From: Rhodoferax sp. BLA1
GTDB taxonomy: Bacteria > Pseudomonadota > Gammaproteobacteria > Burkholderiales > Burkholderiaceae_C
NCBI RefSeq assembly: GCF_013416775.1
Contig: NZ_SZVI01000001.1
Location: 248,001-312,000 of the forward strand
Direction: 5' to 3'
Length of the DNA stretch: 64,000 nucleotides
Under the pieces are notes generated by a model, which had not been told where the DNA came from, did no database searches, and saw only the letters and a program-made list of their open reading frames with translations. Of this stretch, positions 42,137 through 54,280 are shown piece after piece; the stretch's first letter is position 1, and each line of letters starts with the position of its first letter. The translations under genes were made by a program, and so were the position numbers.

Positions 42137-42152
42137 TGCAGCTTCCGTGCCA
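42137..42152 (-). promoter_or_regulatory. sigma-54 promoter of nifHDK
   Basis: Minus-strand TGGCACGGAAGCTGCA matches TGGCACG-N4-TTGCA with one mismatch. The leader to nifH is about 120 nt. NifA would activate from the site at 42247-42262, about 130 bp upstream. Confidence 0.9.
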
Positions 42153-42240
42153 TGCCGTTTGGGCCACGCCTCAAAGCCGGTGTCACACCCTGTTTTCATT
42201 GGGAAAAGCTGTTTTTCTCAGGGCAAAAACCTGGCGTTCC

Positions 42241-42268
42241 GGGTTTTGTTAACTTCCCGACAAAACCC
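42241..42268. promoter_or_regulatory. NifA upstream activator sequence
   Basis: TGT-N10-ACA (42247-42262) embedded in a longer perfect inverted repeat, GGGTTTTGT on the left and ACAAAACCC on the right. It lies between two divergent sigma-54 promoters, about 130 bp from the nifH start and about 115 bp from the other start. Confidence 0.85.
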
Positions 42269-42344
42269 CTGACCGTGTCGCAAAAATCCCGGTCGCAGGC
42301 GCTTGGGATGTGTGTTTGTGTCGGGTTTGCAGCGGGTTTCAGGT

Positions 42345-42360
42345 TGGTACGGTCATTGCA
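42345..42360 (+). promoter_or_regulatory. sigma-54 promoter of the 202-aa gene and dra operon
   Basis: TGGTACGGTCATTGCA matches TGGCACG-N4-TTGCA with one mismatch. The leader is about 50 nt. The rest of 42005-42420 holds the nifH leader, the divergent promoter and the NifA site, with no other gene. Confidence 0.9.
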
Positions 42361-44952: not shown

Positions 44953-45372
44953 ATGGCACACATCAGCTTTTATGAAAAACCCGGCTGTGGCGGCAACGCC
45001 AGGCAAAAGGCTTTGCTGCTCGCCGCCCACCACACCCTTGATGTCAAAGACCTGCTCCAGACCCCATGGACAGAGGAGGAGCTGCTCCTGTTCTTGAGCC
45101 CTCTGGCGGTGCCGGACTGGTTCAACCGCGCGGCACCCCAGGTCAAGTCCGGCGAGGTGGTCCCCGAGTCGCTCAGTGCCGATGCCGCGCTGGCGCTGCT
45201 GTTGGCACAGCCTTTGCTGATCCGTCGGCCATTGATGGCTGTGGGTGAGCAGCGGATGGTCGGCTTTGACACCGCTGCGGTGCACGCCTGGGTCGGCCTG
45301 GGGGACCAGCCACCACCTGGCTCGCTCGAAGGCTGCGCCGCAGCCGCTGGCCACTGCAGCTCACCCCTTTGA
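44953..45372 (+). CDS. nifO: nitrogenase-associated ArsC-like protein NifO
   Basis: 139-aa thioredoxin-fold protein of the ArsC/Spx group that occurs in nif clusters. Seen: ISFYEKPGCGGNARQKALLLAAHH (3-26), DLLQTPWTEEELL, and LIRRPLMAVGEQRMVGFD near 87-104 with the conserved RRP turn. It has one cysteine in PGCGGN where arsenate reductases have CX5R. In Azotobacter, NifO affects the choice between nitrate assimilation and nitrogenase. Eight bases after draG. Confidence 0.85.
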   Translation: MAHISFYEKPGCGGNARQKALLLAAHHTLDVKDLLQTPWTEEELLLFLSPLAVPDWFNRAAPQVKSGEVVPESLSADAALALLLAQPLLIRRPLMAVGEQRMVGFDTAAVHAWVGLGDQPPPGSLEGCAAAAGHCSSPL

Positions 45373-45385
45373 ACTGGAGATCACC

Positions 45386-45637
45386 ATGCCCCTGTATGAC
45401 TACCAATGCCAGGCCTGCGGCCACCACTTTGAGGCGCTGGTGCGCTCTGGCAGCACCCCCGCCTGTCCAGCCTGCGCCAGCGTGGCGCTGACCAAATGTG
45501 TCTCACCGATTGCTCCTGCCGGCAAGATCGAAGCCATCCGTATGGCGCACCGCCGTGTCGCCGCCGCCCAGGGCCTGTTTGACAACTACAGCCCATCCGA
45601 CAAAGCCAAACTGCTGCAAGGCAAGAAAAACATCTGA
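45386..45637 (+). CDS. FmdB-family zinc-ribbon protein
   Basis: 83-aa protein with an N-terminal zinc ribbon: YDYQCQACGHHFE (Cys 8 and 11) and PACPACAS (Cys 27 and 30), followed by a basic helical tail. FmdB proteins accompany formamidase/amidase genes and many metabolic clusters; function unknown. The ATG at 45386 gives the normal family length. Between nifO and cowN and surely co-transcribed. Confidence 0.85.
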   Translation: MPLYDYQCQACGHHFEALVRSGSTPACPACASVALTKCVSPIAPAGKIEAIRMAHRRVAAAQGLFDNYSPSDKAKLLQGKKNI

Positions 45638-45643
45638 TCTGAC

Positions 45644-45916
45644 ATGAACACCGTTGACCGCTACCGCAGCTTCAAAGGCATTGACTTCGACGGCCAGGCC
45701 GCCCGCATGATTGCCCGCATCGAGGCCCACACCCAGGGGCTGGACGACCCGTTCTGGGCCTATTTCTTCCAGCGCCGCAACGCCACCGAGGGCATGCGTT
45801 ACGACGACCAGTTGCTGCTGTCGAGTTTTGTCAACCAGATCCGCGAGCTGCTGGAAGCCAGACACGACGAGACCGGTCTGGCCTGGCTTGACCAGCTCGA
45901 AACCGAGTGTTTCTGA
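45644..45916 (+). CDS. cowN: N2-fixation-sustaining protein CowN
   Basis: 90-aa soluble protein. The pattern DRYRSFKGIDFDGQAARMI at the start, DPFWAYFFQRR in the middle and VNQIRELLEA...LEQLETEC-type end match CowN, which keeps Mo-nitrogenase active in the presence of carbon monoxide. It starts six bases after the FmdB gene. Last gene of the draT-draG-nifO-fmdB group before a repeat at 45998. Confidence 0.88.
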   Translation: MNTVDRYRSFKGIDFDGQAARMIARIEAHTQGLDDPFWAYFFQRRNATEGMRYDDQLLLSSFVNQIRELLEARHDETGLAWLDQLETECF

Positions 45917-45997
45917 GCCGTTTGCCCTGGCGGGTTTGCCACGACCCTGGCGGTTTTGCCACACCGATGCGACGGCCTTGGCCCGCGCCAGAAGCCT

Positions 45998-46056
45998 ATA
46001 TCGCTATCTAATTAAAAGCATTCAGCCATTCATAAATAAGGGCTAGAGGCCAATTT
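45998..46056 (+). repeat. dispersed repeat family 1, copy 7
   Basis: TATCGCTATCTAATTAAAAGC, then CATTCATAAATAAGGGCTAG and AGGCCAATTT. It separates cowN from the promoter at 46086. Confidence 0.85.
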
Positions 46057-46085
46057 CCTCCATAACCTCTCCAAAAAACCGGCTT

Positions 46086-46101
46086 GGGCGCGCTATTTGC
46101 T
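46086..46101 (+). promoter_or_regulatory. sigma-54 promoter of the 134-aa gene
   Basis: GGGCGCGCTATTTGCT has GG and GC ten bases apart and matches TGGCACG-N4-TTGCT at all but two fixed positions. A ModE-like box covers its -12 half. No TGT-N10-ACA site is seen upstream. Confidence 0.65.
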
Positions 46102-46114
46102 TTTATATACAGCG
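46091..46114. promoter_or_regulatory. ModE-like box over the 46086 promoter
   Basis: Imperfect inverted repeat CGCTATT...TATATACAGCG resembling the molybdate-repressor site (CGnTATATA-N-TATATAnCG). From TTGC onward it is 18 bases aligned without gaps to the box before modE. Confidence 0.65.
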
Positions 46115-46216
46115 AGCACAGGATGTGTCGGCTTCGCTCCATCTGCGCCAACACCCCACCCTGTTTCACCACCGACGCTGGCACCTGCCACACGCCGGAC
46201 CACCTTGGAGGCTGGA

Positions 46217-46621
46217 ATGTTCCCTACACAAGCTGCATCGTCTTCTCTCGAAGTTCAGGCCCACTGCCCGTTTGCCCCTGAGCCCCAGGTGGCCTGGAGC
46301 GAGGCTTTGCCCGCGCTGCTGAAACCGCTGGTGGTGGCACCGGTGCACTTTCGGGTGTTTGAGGACTATGAGCTGCGGGCGGGTCGTATCACCGGCTGCG
46401 ACGAGGCCAACCAGCCTTGTTACTGTGCCTCGTTTTTTGTGCTGACCGATCTGCGCTCGGACGACGACGAGGTGTTTTACGAGACCCCGGTGTACACCGA
46501 ATTCGTCACCGCCTGGCGGTTGATTGACCAGCGCTGGCTGGTGTGCCACACCAGCTTCAACCGACTCAAGCCCGGCGGCAAAACCACCCGCTTTTCCGTC
46601 AGTCAGACGATGCCCAGGTAA
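46217..46621 (+). CDS. unrecognised 134-aa protein under a sigma-54/ModE-type promoter
   Basis: Soluble protein I do not recognise. Features: a short polar start, HFRVFEDYELRAGRITGCDEA (about 50-70), cysteines in QPCYCASFF near 75, an acidic DLRSDDDEVFYE stretch and a basic C-terminus. TTGGAGG precedes the ATG at 46217; a longer frame from 46097 is unsupported. Its promoter arrangement matches that of modE, suggesting a role tied to molybdenum status and nitrogen fixation. Confidence 0.7.
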   Translation: MFPTQAASSSLEVQAHCPFAPEPQVAWSEALPALLKPLVVAPVHFRVFEDYELRAGRITGCDEANQPCYCASFFVLTDLRSDDDEVFYETPVYTEFVTAWRLIDQRWLVCHTSFNRLKPGGKTTRFSVSQTMPR

Positions 46622-46661
46622 AACCCGAGCCCAGCCAGACTGTGCCGTTTGTCAGTGACTG

Positions 46662-46677
46662 TGTGCCATTGCCGACA
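46662..46677. promoter_or_regulatory. possible NifA site upstream of modE
   Basis: TGTGCCATTGCCGACA fits TGT-N10-ACA, about 175 bp upstream of the predicted start of the modE transcript. This pattern can arise by chance in a few percent of such regions. Confidence 0.45.
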
Positions 46678-46686
46678 AGGCTTGAT

Positions 46687-46712
46687 ATCGTTATGTAGGC
46701 ATTGATACATTG
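46687..46712. promoter_or_regulatory. second ModE-like half-palindrome
   Basis: TCGTTATGTA on the left and TACATTGCC on the right, eight bases apart: a weak molybdate-repressor-like site between the NifA-type site and the modE promoter. Confidence 0.4.
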
Positions 46713-46817
46713 CCTTAGACAATGCTTTGGGCAACAGGACGCCTCTGTGCCTGTATGTTCAGGGAGGAACCCGCAAACACCAGGGAAAACCTCAGTCATC
46801 AACTTATCAAGCTCACG

Positions 46818-46833
46818 TGGCACGTCGTTTGCT
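46818..46833 (+). promoter_or_regulatory. sigma-54 promoter of modE operon
   Basis: TGGCACGTCGTTTGCT is an exact match to TGGCACG-N4-TTGCT. Its -12 half lies inside the ModE-like box at 46825-46847. Transcription would begin about 15 bases before the 17-codon leader ORF. Confidence 0.9.
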
Positions 46834-46847
46834 TTTGTATATAACGA
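46825..46847. promoter_or_regulatory. ModE-like box over the modE promoter
   Basis: TCGTTTGC on the left and TATATAACGA on the right. The right half is a full match to the ModE half-site. Bound ModE would block sigma-54 RNA polymerase, giving molybdate-dependent autorepression. Confidence 0.75.
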
Positions 46848-46860
46848 CAACCAAGGAAAG

Positions 46861-46910
46861 ATGTCCATGCACACCGCCCAGCCCCTGCCCCAACAACTGG
46901 CCAGCATCAC

Positions 46911-46914
<4 letters not shown>
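46861..46914 (+). CDS. 17-codon leader ORF coupled to modE
   Basis: Starts at ATG 46861 (or 46867) just after AAGGAAAG and ends with TGA overlapping the modE ATG (ATGA). It encodes MSMHTAQPLPQQLASIT. modE itself has no clear ribosome site, so its translation probably depends on this leader. Confidence 0.5.
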
Positions 46915-48514
<1,600 letters not shown>

Positions 48515-48583
48515 CAGGCCCCGCGTGGTCGGCATGAAACTGGCTAGGCTGATGCAGGATGTACTTCACAAGGATGTCAGGCC

Positions 48584-48970
48584 ATGAAGATTGCCATTGC
48601 CACCAAGGCCAACGGCACCCAGGTGTCCGGCCACGCCGGGCAAGCCACCGACTGGCTGGTGTATGACTGCCAGCCCGGTGCCCCCTTGCCCGAGCCGCAG
48701 CACATCCAGCTCACCAAGGCCCAGTTGCCGCACCACTTCCAGGACGACGGGCCGCACCCTTTGCATGGGGTCGAGGTGGTGGTGGCCGCCAGCGCGGGTG
48801 ATGGCTACATCCGCCACCTGGAGAAATGGGGCGCACAGGTGCTGCTGACCGGCGAGAGTGATCCGTTAACCGCCCTCCAGAAGATTCTGGCCGGTGAGGC
48901 CCTGGCCGACACCCGCTTTGACATCACCACCACGCTGTGCAAGCTGCGTGACCTGTTCTCGCGTCATTAA
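48584..48970 (+). CDS. NifX/NifB-domain cofactor-binding protein
   Basis: 128-aa protein of the dinitrogenase iron-molybdenum cofactor family (KIAIATKANGTQVSGHAGQATDWLVYD start; VVVAASAGDGYIRHLEKWGAQVLLTGE near 66-92). It differs from the nifX at 28443 in lacking its acidic insert. AAGGATG precedes the ATG. Its place in the mod operon, between modA and modD, suggests a carrier for molybdenum or cofactor precursor; untested. Confidence 0.82.
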   Translation: MKIAIATKANGTQVSGHAGQATDWLVYDCQPGAPLPEPQHIQLTKAQLPHHFQDDGPHPLHGVEVVVAASAGDGYIRHLEKWGAQVLLTGESDPLTALQKILAGEALADTRFDITTTLCKLRDLFSRH

Positions 48971-48971
48971 C

Positions 48972-49808
48972 ATGCTTGTGCTGAACGACGCCCAGCTCAA
49001 CGCCCTGCTGCAGGACGACGTGCCTTTTGGCGACATCACCACCGACAGCCTGGGTATCGGCGGCCAGCTGGGTCAGCTCAGCTTTCAGACACGCCAGGCC
49101 ATGACCGTCTGTGGCTCCGAAGAAGCCTGCCGCTTGTTTGAACTCGCGGGCGCCCAGGCCACGCGGGTGCTGCCATCAGGCGCAGTGGCCCAGGCGGGTG
49201 AACTGCTGTTGCAGGCACATGGCCCGGTCGCTGGCCTGCACCGCGCCTGGAAAGCCGCCCAGACTTTGGTGGAGTGGGCCAGCGGCATCAGCAGCGCCAC
49301 GGCTGCCATCGTGGCAGCGGCCAATGGGCTGGCCGTGGCCTGCACCCGCAAAAATGTGCCGGGCACCAAAGCCTTGTCGGCCAAGGCGGTGAAGGCTGGT
49401 GGCGGTATCCTGCACCGGCTGGGCCTGTCGGAAACCATTCTGGTGTTTGCCGAGCATCGGCTGTATCTGGACGAGGCCCCTGCCGACACCCTGGCACGGC
49501 TGCGCCGGACCCAGCCTGAGAAAAAACTCGCCGTCGAGGTCGCCAATGTGAGTGAGGCGCTGATGTGGGCACAGGCCGGTGCCGAGGTGTTGCAGCTCGA
49601 AAAATTCACGCCCGAGGCGGTGGCCGCCTGCCGCTTGGCTTTGGCAGAGATTCAACTGCCGACCCGCCCCTTGCTCGCCGCTGCCGGTGGCATCCACGCC
49701 AACAACGCAGCCGCTTATGTGGCTGCCGGGGCAGACTTTTTGGTGACCTCCGCACCCTACTGGGCACCGCCCAAGGATGTGCAGGTGGTGTTTGGAGCCC
49801 ACCCATGA
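48972..49808 (+). CDS. modD: ModD (quinolinate-phosphoribosyltransferase-like) protein
   Basis: 278-aa protein of the NadC fold. Seen: LLQDDVPFGDITTDSLGI (12-30), ARKNVPGTK-type motif TRKNVPGTKALSAKAVKAGGG (about 130-150) and AAGGIHANNAAAYVAAGADFLVTSAPYWAPP at the end. ModD lies in molybdate operons of several diazotrophs; its reaction is unproven. Starts one base after the NifX-like stop and overlaps nifQ by four bases (ATGA). Confidence 0.9.
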   Translation: MLVLNDAQLNALLQDDVPFGDITTDSLGIGGQLGQLSFQTRQAMTVCGSEEACRLFELAGAQATRVLPSGAVAQAGELLLQAHGPVAGLHRAWKAAQTLVEWASGISSATAAIVAAANGLAVACTRKNVPGTKALSAKAVKAGGGILHRLGLSETILVFAEHRLYLDEAPADTLARLRRTQPEKKLAVEVANVSEALMWAQAGAEVLQLEKFTPEAVAACRLALAEIQLPTRPLLAAAGGIHANNAAAYVAAGADFLVTSAPYWAPPKDVQVVFGAHP

Positions 49809-50371
49809 ACACCCCCTTGGCTCACCGGCCCGGGCTGATGGCCGAGCTACTGGCCCGGCCTGCCACTGCACCCGCCACCGCCGACCCGCTGCGCCCGGTG
49901 CTGGCCAGTCTGCTGGTGGGGCGCGCCTTGCAGCAAGGGGTGTTGAGCGCCACCCTGGGTTTGTCACAAGCGGATTTCGCCGCACTCTTGGACGCGTACT
50001 TTCCGGGTGAGCCGATGCCGTTACAAGATGGCCCCGGCAAAGACTCGCTGGAGCTTGACGACATCCACCAGCTGCTGCTGGGCCACCGCGCGGGCAACCA
50101 GGTGTCTGAAGTCTGGCTGGCGCGCATTGTGGCCTGCGCCTGCTGCGGACGCGACCACCTGTGGCAGGACCTGGGGCTGGCCAACCGCACTGAACTATCA
50201 AGCCTGATGGACTTGGCCTTTCCGACACTGGCGGCATTGAATGTGGGCGACATGAAGTGGAAAAAGTTCATCTACCGCCACTACTGCAGCACCGAGAGCA
50301 TTTACCTGTGCCCGGCACCCAGCTGCGGGGAATGTGCCGACCACGCCAAGTGTTTCGCCCCAGAGGAATGA
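49805..50371 (+). CDS. nifQ: NifQ, molybdenum donor for FeMo-cofactor
   Basis: 188-aa protein. The conserved cysteine motif C-x4-C-x2-C-x5-C is at the C-terminus (CPAPSCGECADHAKC, about 170-184) and binds a Mo-Fe-S cluster that delivers molybdenum to NifEN. FPTLAALNVGDMKWKKFIYR precedes it. ATGA overlap with modD places it firmly in the mod operon. Confidence 0.93.
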   Translation: MNTPLAHRPGLMAELLARPATAPATADPLRPVLASLLVGRALQQGVLSATLGLSQADFAALLDAYFPGEPMPLQDGPGKDSLELDDIHQLLLGHRAGNQVSEVWLARIVACACCGRDHLWQDLGLANRTELSSLMDLAFPTLAALNVGDMKWKKFIYRHYCSTESIYLCPAPSCGECADHAKCFAPEE

Positions 50372-50415
50372 AGGCCGCTGCGGAAAGCCTCTTGTGAACA
50401 CGCTAAGCTGACGAC

Positions 50416-51096
50416 ATGTTGTTGACCCCTGATGACTTACAAGCCCTGTGGCTGACCGTGCGCCTGGCTGGCACGGTGACACTGATCCTGCTGCTGCTGG
50501 GCACGCCGCTGGCCTGGTGGCTCGCGCGCGCCAAAGCCTGGTGGAAAGGGCCGCTCAGCGCGGTGGTGGCGCTGCCGCTGGTGTTGCCCCCTTCGGTCCT
50601 GGGCTTTTATCTGCTGCTGGCCATGGGGCCGAACGGCCCGGTGGGGCAGCTGACACAGACGTTGGGGCTGGGTCTGCTGCCCTTCACCTTCTGGGGGCTG
50701 GTGGTGGCCTCGGTGTTTTATTCGCTGCCCTTCATGGTACAGCCCTTGCAAACCGCGTTTGAGGCGATTGGTGAGCGTCCGCTAGAGGTGGCAGCCACCT
50801 TGCGTGCCTCGCCGCTGGACGCCTTTTTCACCGTGGTGGTGCCATTGGCGCGACCCGGTTTTATGACCGCGTGTATTTTGACCTTTGCCCACACCGTGGG
50901 GGAGTTTGGGGTGGTGCTGATGATTGGCGGCAACATCCCGGGCGTGAGCCGTGTCGCCTCGGTGCAGATCTACGACCATGTCGAAGCTTTGGAGTACGTG
51001 GACGCCCATCGCCTGTCAGCGGTGATGCTGGTGTTCTCGTTTGTGGTGCTGCTGGCGCTCTACGCCCGGCGGCCAAAACCTGTCCGAGAAAGCTGA
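50416..51096 (+). CDS. modB: molybdate ABC transporter permease ModB
   Basis: 226-aa membrane protein with five or six helices. The ABC permease EAA loop appears as [27 protein letters not shown] (about 120-146). [17 protein letters not shown] and [12 protein letters not shown] are typical for ModB. Start at 50416 ATG. Ends one base before modC. Confidence 0.93.
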
Positions 51097-51097
51097 G

Positions 51098-52168
51098 ATG
51101 GCGGACATACAGGCGCGTTTTCACATCGACTGGCCGGGCTTCACGCTGGACGTGGACCTGGACCTGCCCGCGCGCGGGGTGACCGCGCTGTTTGGCCACT
51201 CAGGATCTGGCAAAACCACGCTGCTGCGCTGTATTGCCGGGTTGGAACGCGCGCCGCATGGGCAGCTGCGGGTCAATGATGAGGTCTGGCAGGACGACAC
51301 CCACTGGCTGCCCACCCACCAACGCCCGCTGGGCTATGTGTTTCAGGAGGCCAGCCTGTTCCCGCACCTGACGGTGCTAGGCAACCTGCGTTATGGCCTC
51401 AAGCGCACAAACGCTGCGGCGCGCGTCAGCCTGGATCAGGCGATAGCTTTGCTGGGTATTGCGCATCTGCTGGATCGCCAGCCCGAGCATCTGTCAGGTG
51501 GTGAACGCCAGCGTGTCAGCATCGCACGCGCCCTGGCCTTGAGCCCGCGCATCTTGCTGATGGACGAACCCCTGGCCGCCCTGGACATACAACGCAAGCA
51601 GGAGATCCTGCCCTACCTGGAACGCCTGCACCACGAGCTAGACATTCCGGTGCTGTATGTCAGCCACGCGCCCGACGAGGTGGCGCGGCTGGCCGACCAC
51701 ATCGTGGCGATGGAGGGTGGCCGTGCGCTGGCCTGCGGGCCGCTCGGTGAGACGTTGGCGCGGCTGGATTTGCCGATTCGCCTCGGTGAAGATGCCGGTG
51801 TGGTGCTGGATGCGGTGGTGGCCGAGCGCGACGCCACCTGGCACCTGGCGCGTGTAACGTTCCCCGGTGGCAGCCTGTGGGTGCGTGATGGCGGCCACGC
51901 CCTGGGCAGCGCGGTGCGGGTGCGCATCCTGGCGCGTGATGTCAGCGTCGCCCTGCACCCGGTGCTTGATACCAGCATCCTGAACTGCCTGCCCGCCACG
52001 GTGGACCAGCTGGCGCCAGATGACCACCCGGCGCTGATGCTGCTGCGTCTAAAGCTCGGGGACTCACCGCTGATCGCCCGACTGACCCAACGCTCGGCCG
52101 CTGGCCTGGGCCTGGCCCCCGGCCAACCGGTGTGGGTGCAGATCAAGGCGGTGGCGCTGATTGGTTAG
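51098..52168 (+). CDS. modC: molybdate ABC transporter ATPase ModC
   Basis: 356-aa ATPase. Walker [13 protein letters not shown] (32-43), Q-loop [13 protein letters not shown], signature [15 protein letters not shown] (about 130-144), Walker [14 protein letters not shown]-loop YVSHAPDE; a C-terminal TOBE domain at about 290-350 senses molybdate. ATG 51098 follows the modB stop directly. Last gene of the mod operon; a dispersed repeat follows. Confidence 0.95.
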
Positions 52169-52188
52169 CGCCTGGTTTAACGATAAAA

Positions 52189-52230
52189 ACTAGCTGTAGC
52201 CCTTTTTGAGAAAGGGCCATATGCTGCATT
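52189..52230 (+). repeat. dispersed repeat family 1, copy 8, after modC
   Basis: TAGCTGTAGCCCTTTTTGAG and AAAGGGCCATATG can form a stem of eight or nine pairs. The remainder of 52231-52450 shows no supported gene. Confidence 0.7.
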
Positions 52231-52450
52231 TGTCGTAGCAAGATGGTCGCTTGTGACCTGCCCGTTGAAGCACACCAGCGGCGGCACCCATTGGTGGGTG
52301 ACAAGCGACAAAACCGACAAAGCGGCGCTGCCACAGTTCTTGCTTGACACCCCCCGTCTGCGCATTTGGCCTGTGGCACGGGGCCACAGCAAGTCACCTT
52401 GGCAGCACGGCATCCGGTGCAGCATGCACTGCAATTCATAGCACATTACC

Positions 52451-52470
52451 CAACATTCATAAGGGCTACA
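52451..52470 (+). repeat. partial family 1 repeat before the 159-aa gene
   Basis: ACATTCATAAGGGCTACAGC keeps only the right core of the family. AAGGG in it is the likely ribosome site of the gene at 52473. Confidence 0.5.
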
Positions 52471-52472
52471 GC

Positions 52473-52952
52473 ATGGTTTCTCACACAACCCCTGCCGACC
52501 ACACCCCCATGGCGCCCACCGACCTGTTTGTCCACAACCGGGTGATCCTCACCCACTTTGACAGTTACAGCGCGGCCTTGCTTTTCCCGCGCTGGGACCA
52601 GACCTTGCTTTGGCCCTCTGCCCTGCCGGGCGACGCCGTGCCGATGCGTTCACCCGCAGTCATCACAACCGAGTTTTCGGGCCAGGCAGTGCGCCAGGCG
52701 GTGATCGACTGCTGCGGTTTTGATCCCGCCACGCTGGAACGTGTCCAGGAGTTCAACCACTGGGCCAGCACCGAGGACGGCCCGGTGCGTATCCACCTGC
52801 TGCGTTTCACCACCCGCGACGCGCCCAAGGCAGCCATTGAGGCGTTGGGCGGCGAGTTCAAGCCAATCAGCCTGCTGCGCAGCAGCGCGATGAGTGAGCT
52901 GGTGCTGCTGCGCGAGGTGTTCAACCTGATCGTCAGCGCGGGCATGCCCTGA
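52473..52952 (+). CDS. unrecognised 159-aa protein
   Basis: Soluble protein I do not recognise. The core LFVHNRVILTHFDSYSAALLFPRWDQTLLWP (17-47) and the second half SEDGPVRIHLLRFTTRDAPKAAIEALGGEF-type sequence look globular, with cysteines in IDCCGFD near 90. Start may be 52473, where a repeat-borne AAGGG acts as ribosome site, or ATG 52509. It lies between the mod operon and a transglycosylase gene; role unknown. Confidence 0.65.
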   Translation: MVSHTTPADHTPMAPTDLFVHNRVILTHFDSYSAALLFPRWDQTLLWPSALPGDAVPMRSPAVITTEFSGQAVRQAVIDCCGFDPATLERVQEFNHWASTEDGPVRIHLLRFTTRDAPKAAIEALGGEFKPISLLRSSAMSELVLLREVFNLIVSAGMP

Positions 52953-52978
52953 GTTCTGACCCGGCCGACAATGGGGGC

Positions 52979-54280
52979 ATGAACACTTTTTTGCCCTCTA
53001 TCGCACGCAGCGCCCTGCCATCACGCTGGCTCGCCCCCTGTGTGCTGGCCTGCCTGGGCCTGGCCGCGTGCACCACGCCACCCCAACCCACCGCCCCCCA
53101 AACCGCACCGCCAGCCCAGCAGACCACTGCGGCAAACGCAGCCTCGGCAGACCTGGACGTTCATGCCCAACAGTTTGCGCGCTGGGTGGCGGAGTTCAGC
53201 GACAGTGCCCGTGCCGCTGGCATCGACGAAGCCACGCTGCACAGTGCGTTTGACACCGTTCGTTTTGTACCTCGCGTGATTGAACTCGACCGCGCCCAGC
53301 CCGAGTTCAACCGGACGGTGTGGGACTACCTTGACAACGCGGTGTCCAAACAACGTGTGATACGCGGTCAAGACAAGCTCCAGCAATCGCGCACGGACAT
53401 CGAGGCCGCAGCGCGCCGTTACGGCGTCCCAGCGGAGATCCTCGTGGCGATCTGGGGCATGGAGAGCAACTACGGCAGCTTCATGGGCGACATACCCACC
53501 ATCGATGCACTGGCCACATTGGGCTTTGAAGGCCGACGCGGGCCCTGGGCGCGTGGGCAATTGCTTGCCGCGCTAAAGATGCTGCAAAACCACGAGCTTG
53601 AACGCGACCAGATGATCGGATCGTGGGCCGGCGCCATGGGCCAGACCCAGTTGCTGCCGTCCAACTACCTGGCCTATGCAGTCGACGCTGACGGCGATGG
53701 CCGCCGAGACATCTGGGCCAGCCTGCCCGATGTGATGGGCTCAACGGCCCATTTCCTGGCCAAATCCGGCTGGCAGGCCGACCAGCCCTGGGCGGTTGAA
53801 GTCCGGTTGCCAGCAGGATTTGACTTTGCACTAGCCGATGGCGACCTGCGTCAGCCAAGCTCAGCATGGCAGCAACAGGGTGTGCAGTCGCTCGACGGCG
53901 GCCCCTTGCCTGATCTGCCCGACAGTGCGCTGCTTCTGCCAGCCGGTGCACGCGGCCCGGCCTTCCTGGTCGGCGCCAACTTCCGCGCCATCCTGCGTTA
54001 CAACAACGCTACCAGTTACGCGCTGGCGGTGGGCCTACTGGCCCAACAACTGGCGGGCGGCCCCGGCGTACAAGCCCCTTGGCCGCGCGATGTACAAGCC
54101 TTGTCTCGCACGCAATTGCAGGCTTTGCAGACCGCCCTCAGCGCGCGTGGCTTTGACACTGGGCCTGCCGACGGGGTGATGGGCCCGGCCACGCGCCGCG
54201 CCATTCGCGCGTACCAGCGCAGTGTGGGCCTGCCGCAGGACGGTTACCCCACACTGGAGCTACTGACCCAACTGCAGTGA
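52979..54280 (+). CDS. lytic murein transglycosylase (MltB-like) with peptidoglycan-binding domain
   Basis: 433-aa envelope enzyme that cleaves glycan strands. Signal peptide with lipobox LGLAAC (cysteine about 29) suggests a lipoprotein. The SLT_2 domain (about 60-350) has the catalytic glutamate in IWGMESNYGSFMG (about 163) and GAMGQTQLLPSNY. The last 60 residues form a peptidoglycan_binding_1 domain (QALQTALSARGFDTGPADGV). ATG at 52979. Confidence 0.9.
   Translation: MNTFLPSIARSALPSRWLAPCVLACLGLAACTTPPQPTAPQTAPPAQQTTAANAASADLDVHAQQFARWVAEFSDSARAAGIDEATLHSAFDTVRFVPRVIELDRAQPEFNRTVWDYLDNAVSKQRVIRGQDKLQQSRTDIEAAARRYGVPAEILVAIWGMESNYGSFMGDIPTIDALATLGFEGRRGPWARGQLLAALKMLQNHELERDQMIGSWAGAMGQTQLLPSNYLAYAVDADGDGRRDIWASLPDVMGSTAHFLAKSGWQADQPWAVEVRLPAGFDFALADGDLRQPSSAWQQQGVQSLDGGPLPDLPDSALLLPAGARGPAFLVGANFRAILRYNNATSYALAVGLLAQQLAGGPGVQAPWPRDVQALSRTQLQALQTALSARGFDTGPADGVMGPATRRAIRAYQRSVGLPQDGYPTLELLTQLQ

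Follow-up and report, generated by a model that had tools for sequence, protein, structure and literature searches.

A putative ModE operator built into a predicted NifA/sigma-54 promoter ahead of modE in Rhodoferax sp. BLA1

Sigma-54 promoters are usually described as being controlled through their activators. The region upstream of modE in Rhodoferax sp. BLA1 raises the question of whether such a promoter may also carry the binding site of a metal-sensing repressor on the very bases that form its -24/-12 element. The region lies in a stretch of 64,000 nucleotides (the window) that is part of a 4.46-Mb genome (G000, contig C10). An initial annotation of the window had proposed that a sigma-54 promoter ahead of modE is covered by a ModE-like palindrome, and that the operon is activated by NifA and repressed by molybdate and by its own product. 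We followed up these proposals by motif scoring within the window and by comparison with related genomes.

The modE locus

The operon runs in the order modE-modA-NafY-like-modD-nifQ-modB-modC (Table 1). The intergenic gaps are short and modD and nifQ overlap; modE through modC are presumably transcribed together. Family matches bear out the statement of the initial annotation that the promoter precedes a modE operon carrying nifQ and modD. The product of 48584..48970 is taken by us to be NafY/NifX-like. Terminator-like matches on both strands of 46800-52400 numbered 9 compared to 5.1 expected, which was unconvincing, and a scan of 45000-53000 against Rfam for the molybdenum-cofactor riboswitch and other RNA families returned no match up to an E value of 0.5.

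The modE product matched E. coli ModE structures over residues 21-271 with an E value of 2.1e-39. An N-terminal DNA-binding domain and tandem Mop domains are both present, TIGR00637 and TIGR00638 being above their cut-offs. The score against the NCBIfam equivalog PRK10676 was 192 bits, below the cut-off of 369; this model is probably a narrow one, built on close relatives of E. coli. The genome has one modE and, above curated cut-offs, one nifA and one rpoN. ModE was 98% identical to that of Rhodoferax sp. U11-2br (locus L001) and 92% identical to that of R. antarcticus (L002), both of which belong to the same-genus genome set (G718 and G686, respectively).

On the minus strand, the neighborhood of the operon contains nifH (TIGR01287) followed by two ORFs that are probably nifD and nifK. 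On the plus strand, draT, an ADP-ribosylglycohydrolase gene (draG), cowN, and orfX are followed by the modE operon. No family was found for orfX in Pfam at 0.001 or in NCBIfam, and a structural model of its product (mean pLDDT 80.8) gave no Foldseek match to the PDB library at E ≤0.001. In 19 of 27 loci (L001-L027), orfX precedes modE on the same strand, in some cases with intervening genes. It adjoins modE in the window; reverse-strand genes separate the two in some relatives (L001 and L024). At least 12 relatives have a ModE-like box over the first orfX codons, and the window has no such box.

Although the ModE proteins of the window and L001 are nearly identical, the leaders and spacers upstream of modE differ strongly between the two. 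In L001, orfX and modE are approximately 2.7 kb apart, and the interval includes reverse-strand stretches matching ModE and ModB; the ModE-matching stretch probably corresponds to the Mop part. The leader ORF of the window sits behind AAGGAAAG. By eye, a similar leader is present in L002 and absent in L001. This leader ORF, the P1 composite, UAS1, UAS2, and O2 (Table 1) were not listed in the initial annotation.

Table 1. Features of the modE region, in window coordinates
Feature	Position	Strand	Basis or remark
P1 sigma-54-like element	46086..46101	+	2 mismatches; weak, GGGCGC replacing TGGCAC
Putative ModE box on P1	46091..46114	+	first in window with both matrices (matrix 1: 20.9)
orfX	46217..46621	+	conserved small protein; upstream of modE
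UAS1, putative NifA upstream activator motif	46662..46677	+	TGT-N10-ACA; pattern match
O2, weaker ModE-like box over UAS2	46689..46712	+	score 12.3, third in window; 14/20 in frame 46687-46714
UAS2, putative NifA upstream activator motif	46694..46709	+	TGT-N10-ACA; pattern match, ambiguous
P2 -24/-12 element	46818..46833	+	TGGCACGTCGTTTGCT, zero mismatches to TGGCACRNNNNTTGCW; GG 46819-46820, GC 46831-46832
O1, putative ModE box on P2	46823..46846	+	CGTCGTTTGCTTTTGTATATAACG; 24 bp, CG-N20-CG, about -21 to +3
Leader ORF, 17 codons	46861..46914	+	stop overlaps modE start (ATGA); read from sequence
modE	46911..47732	+	TIGR00637 103.5 bits (cut-off 98.5); TIGR00638 145 bits (cut-off 55)
modA	47759..48514	+	TIGR01256 251.7 bits
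NafY/NifX-like protein (Nitro_FeMo-Co), presumed label	48584..48970	+	Pfam PF02579 21.9 bits, under its cut-off 26.3
modD	48972..49808	+	TIGR01334 262.7 bits
nifQ	49805..50371	+	Pfam PF04891 169.8 bits
modB	50416..51096	+	TIGR02141 237.6 bits
modC	51098..52168	+	TIGR02142 431.7 bits

Promoter elements and putative ModE boxes

The -24/-12 element at P2 is exact, as the initial annotation had said. It is one of two exact matches to TGGCACRNNNNTTGCW in the window, the other starting at 45203. Genome-wide there were 9 exact matches compared to 3 for a reversed control pattern; an exact match by itself is therefore weak evidence, and the context decides. From the usual sigma-54 spacing, which we assume to hold here, the P2 transcript is predicted to start at 46844. 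The second exact match in the window (45203-45218) lies within an ArsC-like ORF, upstream of a zinc-ribbon gene and cowN, and may be due to chance. Between the divergent nifH and draT genes there are also sigma-54-like elements with one mismatch each, at 42137-42152 (minus strand, nifH side) and 42345-42360 (plus strand, draT side), and a single TGT-N10-ACA motif lies between them at 42247. Neither of these two elements (42137-42360) is within the 20 best ModE boxes of the window.

The context at P2 includes the two TGT-N10-ACA motifs UAS1 and UAS2, which strengthen the earlier proposal of NifA/sigma-54 activation. They are spaced 32 bp apart and begin 156 and 124 bp upstream of the P2 element, with centers approximately 174 and 142 bp upstream of the predicted start. 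In the whole window, TGT-N10-ACA occurred 11 times compared to 15.5 expected by chance. Since the motif is not in excess, it is the pairing at P2 that counts. In five relatives (L001, L002, L003, L006, and L007), modE has a sigma-54 site no more than 100 bp away; 3 of them keep the pair, with spacings of 32 bp in L001, 32 bp in L006, and 33 bp in L007. One motif only was found in L002, and L003 has a pair 52 bp apart. UAS2 is ambiguous because TGT-N10-ACA is frequent within the ModE boxes of relatives. Predicted control of P2 by NifA is well supported by the sequence.

The E. coli-type ModE consensus, in the accessible part of its description, is ATCGNTATATA-N6-TATATANCGAT, spanning 24 bp from CG to CG (PMC545781). 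Upstream of modE and orfX in the relatives, many 24-mers of the form CGYT-N16-ARCG were found. O1 has the same 24-bp spacing. Its right half (ATAACG, outside the -24/-12 element) is near-perfect, whereas the left half, within that element, is poor (CGTCG, compared to CGYTR elsewhere), so that the operator at P2 may be weaker than the one at P1. The initial annotation had placed the box at 46825-46847, as a palindrome TCGTT-N13-AACGA beginning inside the promoter spacer and covering the -12 half and the start site. A ModE-like box is indeed present over the promoter and the quoted letters exist, but the palindrome has arms of 5 bp and its register is wrong, with a score of -19.7 at 46825 compared to 17.1 at 46823. 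The predicted start is covered as claimed; the box itself begins further upstream than the annotation had it (Table 1).

These scores come from a matrix (matrix 1) of 38 distinct CGYT-N16-ARCG sites from 41 places at other loci, none of them superimposed on a GG-N2-CG-N6-GC core. One training site, upstream of orfX in L002, is a degenerate counterpart of P1. In the window, matrix 1 ranked the P1 box first, O1 second, and O2 third. When the window was shuffled 100 times at first order, scores of 17.1 or more turned up at a rate of 0.02 per shuffle, the top score being 19.3; this chance figure is optimistic because such shuffling takes no account of how AT-rich intergenic DNA is. A stricter matrix 2, made from 27 sites that were all from loci without the composite, returned the same three boxes in the same order; however, 8 of 100 first-order shuffles, with the same optimism, reached the score of 46823. 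The E. coli consensus was also used blind in 28-bp frames and gave 14/20 at 46687, 14/20 at 46089, and 13/20 at 46821-46848, against chance levels per 64 kb of shuffles of 0.05 at ≥14/20 and 0.42 at ≥13/20. A score of 13/20 was also seen at two unrelated window positions. Upstream of a distant modE outside the training set (L092, 57% identical), matrix 1 found boxes scoring 24.2 and 26.6, which supports the matrix as a ModE motif. A genome scan with the box pattern at up to 2 mismatches gave no enrichment (114 matches vs 134 for the control). A genome-wide ModE regulon drawn by pattern was rejected as inseparable from chance at 2 mismatches.

The P1 box was the only zero-mismatch match to the box pattern in the genome, among the matches listed, and with its sigma-54-like element it forms a second composite promoter in the window (46086-46114), upstream of orfX. 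Across 11 P1 loci, the -24 position reads GGCACG in 6 and GGTACG in L013. TGT-N10-ACA was absent from the 400 bases upstream of P1 in all 11. Within 250 bases downstream of P1, the motif was seen in 8 of the 11 (L004, L008, L010, L012, L013, L024, L027, and L079), 39-229 bases past the P1 GG, and the L024 copy lies inside a ModE-like box. These could be downstream enhancers or something else.

Conservation of the composite

We scored all GG-N2-CG-N6-GC cores in 29 sources (n = 773) for the overlapping box. Thirteen scored at least 17, and the next best scored 5.7. Eight of the 13 lie upstream of orfX and 5 upstream of modE; they are related by descent, and are therefore not 13 independent events. 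Strict sigma-54 sites in the same sources (n = 22) had a right half-site score above 10 in 6 cases and of -2 or lower in 16, so the half-site is no general feature of sigma-54 promoters. Outside the P2 site, the leaders of the window, L001, L002, and L003 look different from one another by eye.

At the level of the genus, the composite pattern with at most one mismatch was found at 13 sites in 9 of 89 genomes, compared to 0 in 89 with the reversed control. The molybdate locus accounts for all 13: 7 before orfX, 5 before modE, and 1 before modA. Ten were placed through annotated loci, 2 are the window's own, and 1 (contig C13 of G758) was placed by its likeness to L024, with which it shares both sequence and distance from modE and where orfX comes next. 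The site before modA is in G727, in the arrangement draG-arsC-Zn-ribbon-modA-nifQ. A search of 399 genomes of the order (12 of the family, own genome included) produced one further hit, a degenerate one in G314 with none of the genes of the window nearby.

The composite does not follow modE throughout. Fifteen genomes of the genus had a modE match at 1e-60, and 8 of these were without the composite at one mismatch (G686, G689, G701, G715, G722, G742, G214, and G747). In G686, the P2 composite is present but carries two mismatches; G689, G701, G722, G742, and G214 have ModE-like boxes at other positions; and no ModE-like boxes were found in G715 and the truncated G747. In G703 and G727, the composite was found but modE gave no match at 1e-60. 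The version in L012 spans 23 bp, and L006 and L007 have a sigma-54 site and nif linkage but not the 24-bp composite. When 27 loci were classified by hand (the window, L001-L024, L027, and L079, leaving out L025, L026, L028, and L029), 9 of 13 nif-linked loci had the composite compared to 2 of 14 others (Fisher p 0.006), a difference that is confounded by descent and is given little weight here. The composite is lineage-conserved across part of the genus.

Proposed regulation, competing readings, and known systems

Taken together, these data indicate that 46662-46848 is probably a two-input promoter, in which NifA and sigma-54 would activate, molybdate-bound ModE would occlude the core, and modE would repress itself. 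When nitrogen fixation is on, NifA at the motifs at 46662 and 46694 would activate sigma-54 polymerase at P2, and perhaps it drives P1 as well. When molybdate is plentiful, a molybdate-ModE dimer would sit on O1, from the -24 element through the start site. Because the box spans the core promoter, polymerase and repressor would be mutually exclusive, and modE, as the first gene of the operon, would limit its own synthesis. A second copy of this composite, P1, precedes orfX. At P2, binding, activation, repression, the start site, and co-transcription are all predictions from these features. Mutants in nifQ are rescued by excess molybdate in the accessible part of one report (PMC6448029), and repression of nifQ by molybdate would therefore make sense. 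A more elaborate version, which we regard as unlikely, is that molybdate-ModE blocks both inputs, with dimers on O1 and O2 (134 bp apart, center to center), perhaps a repression loop replacing the NifA loop, and P1 as a third operator.

Four other readings of the region were weighed. The one that survives best, although we judge it improbable, is that the P2 box is a relic: the sigma-54/NifA promoter would be real, ModE control would be exerted at P1 or O2, and P2 would escape molybdate. The degenerate left half of O1, mismatched to the box pattern where P1 has no mismatch, is consistent with this reading, as is the retention of the sigma-54 site without the 24-bp composite in L006 and L007. 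However, the near-perfect right half of the P2 box recurs with unchanged spacing in L001, L002, and L003 despite their differing leaders, and the O1 score lies within the range of the matrix 1 training sites (9.9-29.6).

A second reading, which we consider quite improbable, makes O2-bound ModE an activator or a competitor of NifA, with the overlap at the core promoter being secondary. ModE is able to activate in E. coli. Boxes like O2 lie over the second enhancer motif in L001, L002, L006, and L007, where they score higher than in the window (22.2, 25.6, 15.5, and 20.4, respectively), and in L002 the upstream box outscores the core box (25.6 vs 19.7). In contrast, O2 itself has the lowest matrix score of the three boxes of the window, although with 14/20 it is not the weakest by the E. 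coli consensus. Moreover, the overlap of O2 with UAS2 may be nominal, since the ModE consensus itself places TGT-N10-ACA within many boxes. In L084, which corresponds to L003, the upstream ModE-like box (20.2) does not lie over a TGT-N10-ACA.

Slightly less probable still is a dominant sigma-70 promoter or read-through, with the sigma-54 element playing a minor part or being served by NtrC. R. capsulatus mopA-modABC is described as a member of the NtrC regulon, with NtrC acting there together with RpoD, in the accessible part of PMC6925177, and one sigma-70-like match was found at 46682-46711. However, this match is near chance (1 vs 0.5 expected), 46800-52400 gave no sigma-70-like promoter match, and both the sigma-54 core and the arrangement of the UAS motifs are conserved. 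The idea that the sigma-54 and ModE consensus sequences simply have CG...TTTGC in common, the remainder being coincidence, is very remote: the -24/-12 letters do dictate the left half-site, but every genus site is at the molybdate locus with an empty reversed control, and the 399 genomes of the order held a single degenerate hit beyond the own genome.

The two-input promoter that we favor has relatives among known systems, each described here from the accessible part of its report. R. capsulatus morAB depends on NifA, and MopA/MopB, which are ModE-like, repress it together with molybdate (PMC6925177). It resembles the present operon in being molybdate-transporter-like, and it combines the NifA activation and ModE-type repression that the sites predict here; it differs in that, as described, it is without its own ModE, nifQ, and modD (PMC6925177). 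Since NifA activation with ModE-type repression was shown for morAB, the logic is already known. In A. vinelandii anfA, a sigma-54 promoter and a putative ModE site also share one promoter region, and molybdenum represses all transcripts (PMC9542535). However, the ModE site there is at a separate start, TSS3, and not at TSS1 behind the -24/-12 element; a modE1 modE2 double mutant keeps some molybdenum repression; and the gene encodes the activator of Fe-nitrogenase (PMC9542535). H. seropedicae nifQ-modABC and alphaproteobacterial modABC are NifA/sigma-54 operons or have predicted NifA sites (PMC3093359, PMC3912193, PMC4999443). They share with the present locus mod genes and nifQ under NifA, reported or predicted, whereas the accessible parts of these three reports make no mention of a ModE site or of molybdate repression. 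In Azoarcus BH72, modA1 and modE are upregulated during nitrogen fixation (PMC3916325). With NifA control of mod genes on record, it is not out of the ordinary for the mod genes of a diazotroph to have a sigma-54 promoter. O1 has in common with E. coli-type ModE operators the 24-bp CG-to-CG span and a strong TATATAACGA right half, as far as these are described in the accessible part of PMC545781. Its left half, unlike theirs, follows the sigma-54 consensus, with TTTGC replacing TATA.

In the literature searched, with most subscription journals outside its scope, we found no ModE box over a -24/-12 element. What appears to be new here, within that literature, is a putative ModE operator built into a -24/-12 element, conserved in part of the genus, doubled, and placed before modE. 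The putative site of a metal-sensing repressor and the promoter element would occupy shared bases, and this overlap has been kept in part of the genus. Competition between a repressor and sigma-54 polymerase could be studied at P2, which is a simple promoter. If the proposed regulation is true, the promoter would act as a compact AND-NOT gate, open when the cell is fixing nitrogen and lacks molybdenum, with feedback on its own sensor. Molybdate uptake and NifQ would be withdrawn together at plentiful molybdenum, and the organism would gather molybdenum only when nitrogen is being fixed and the metal is short.
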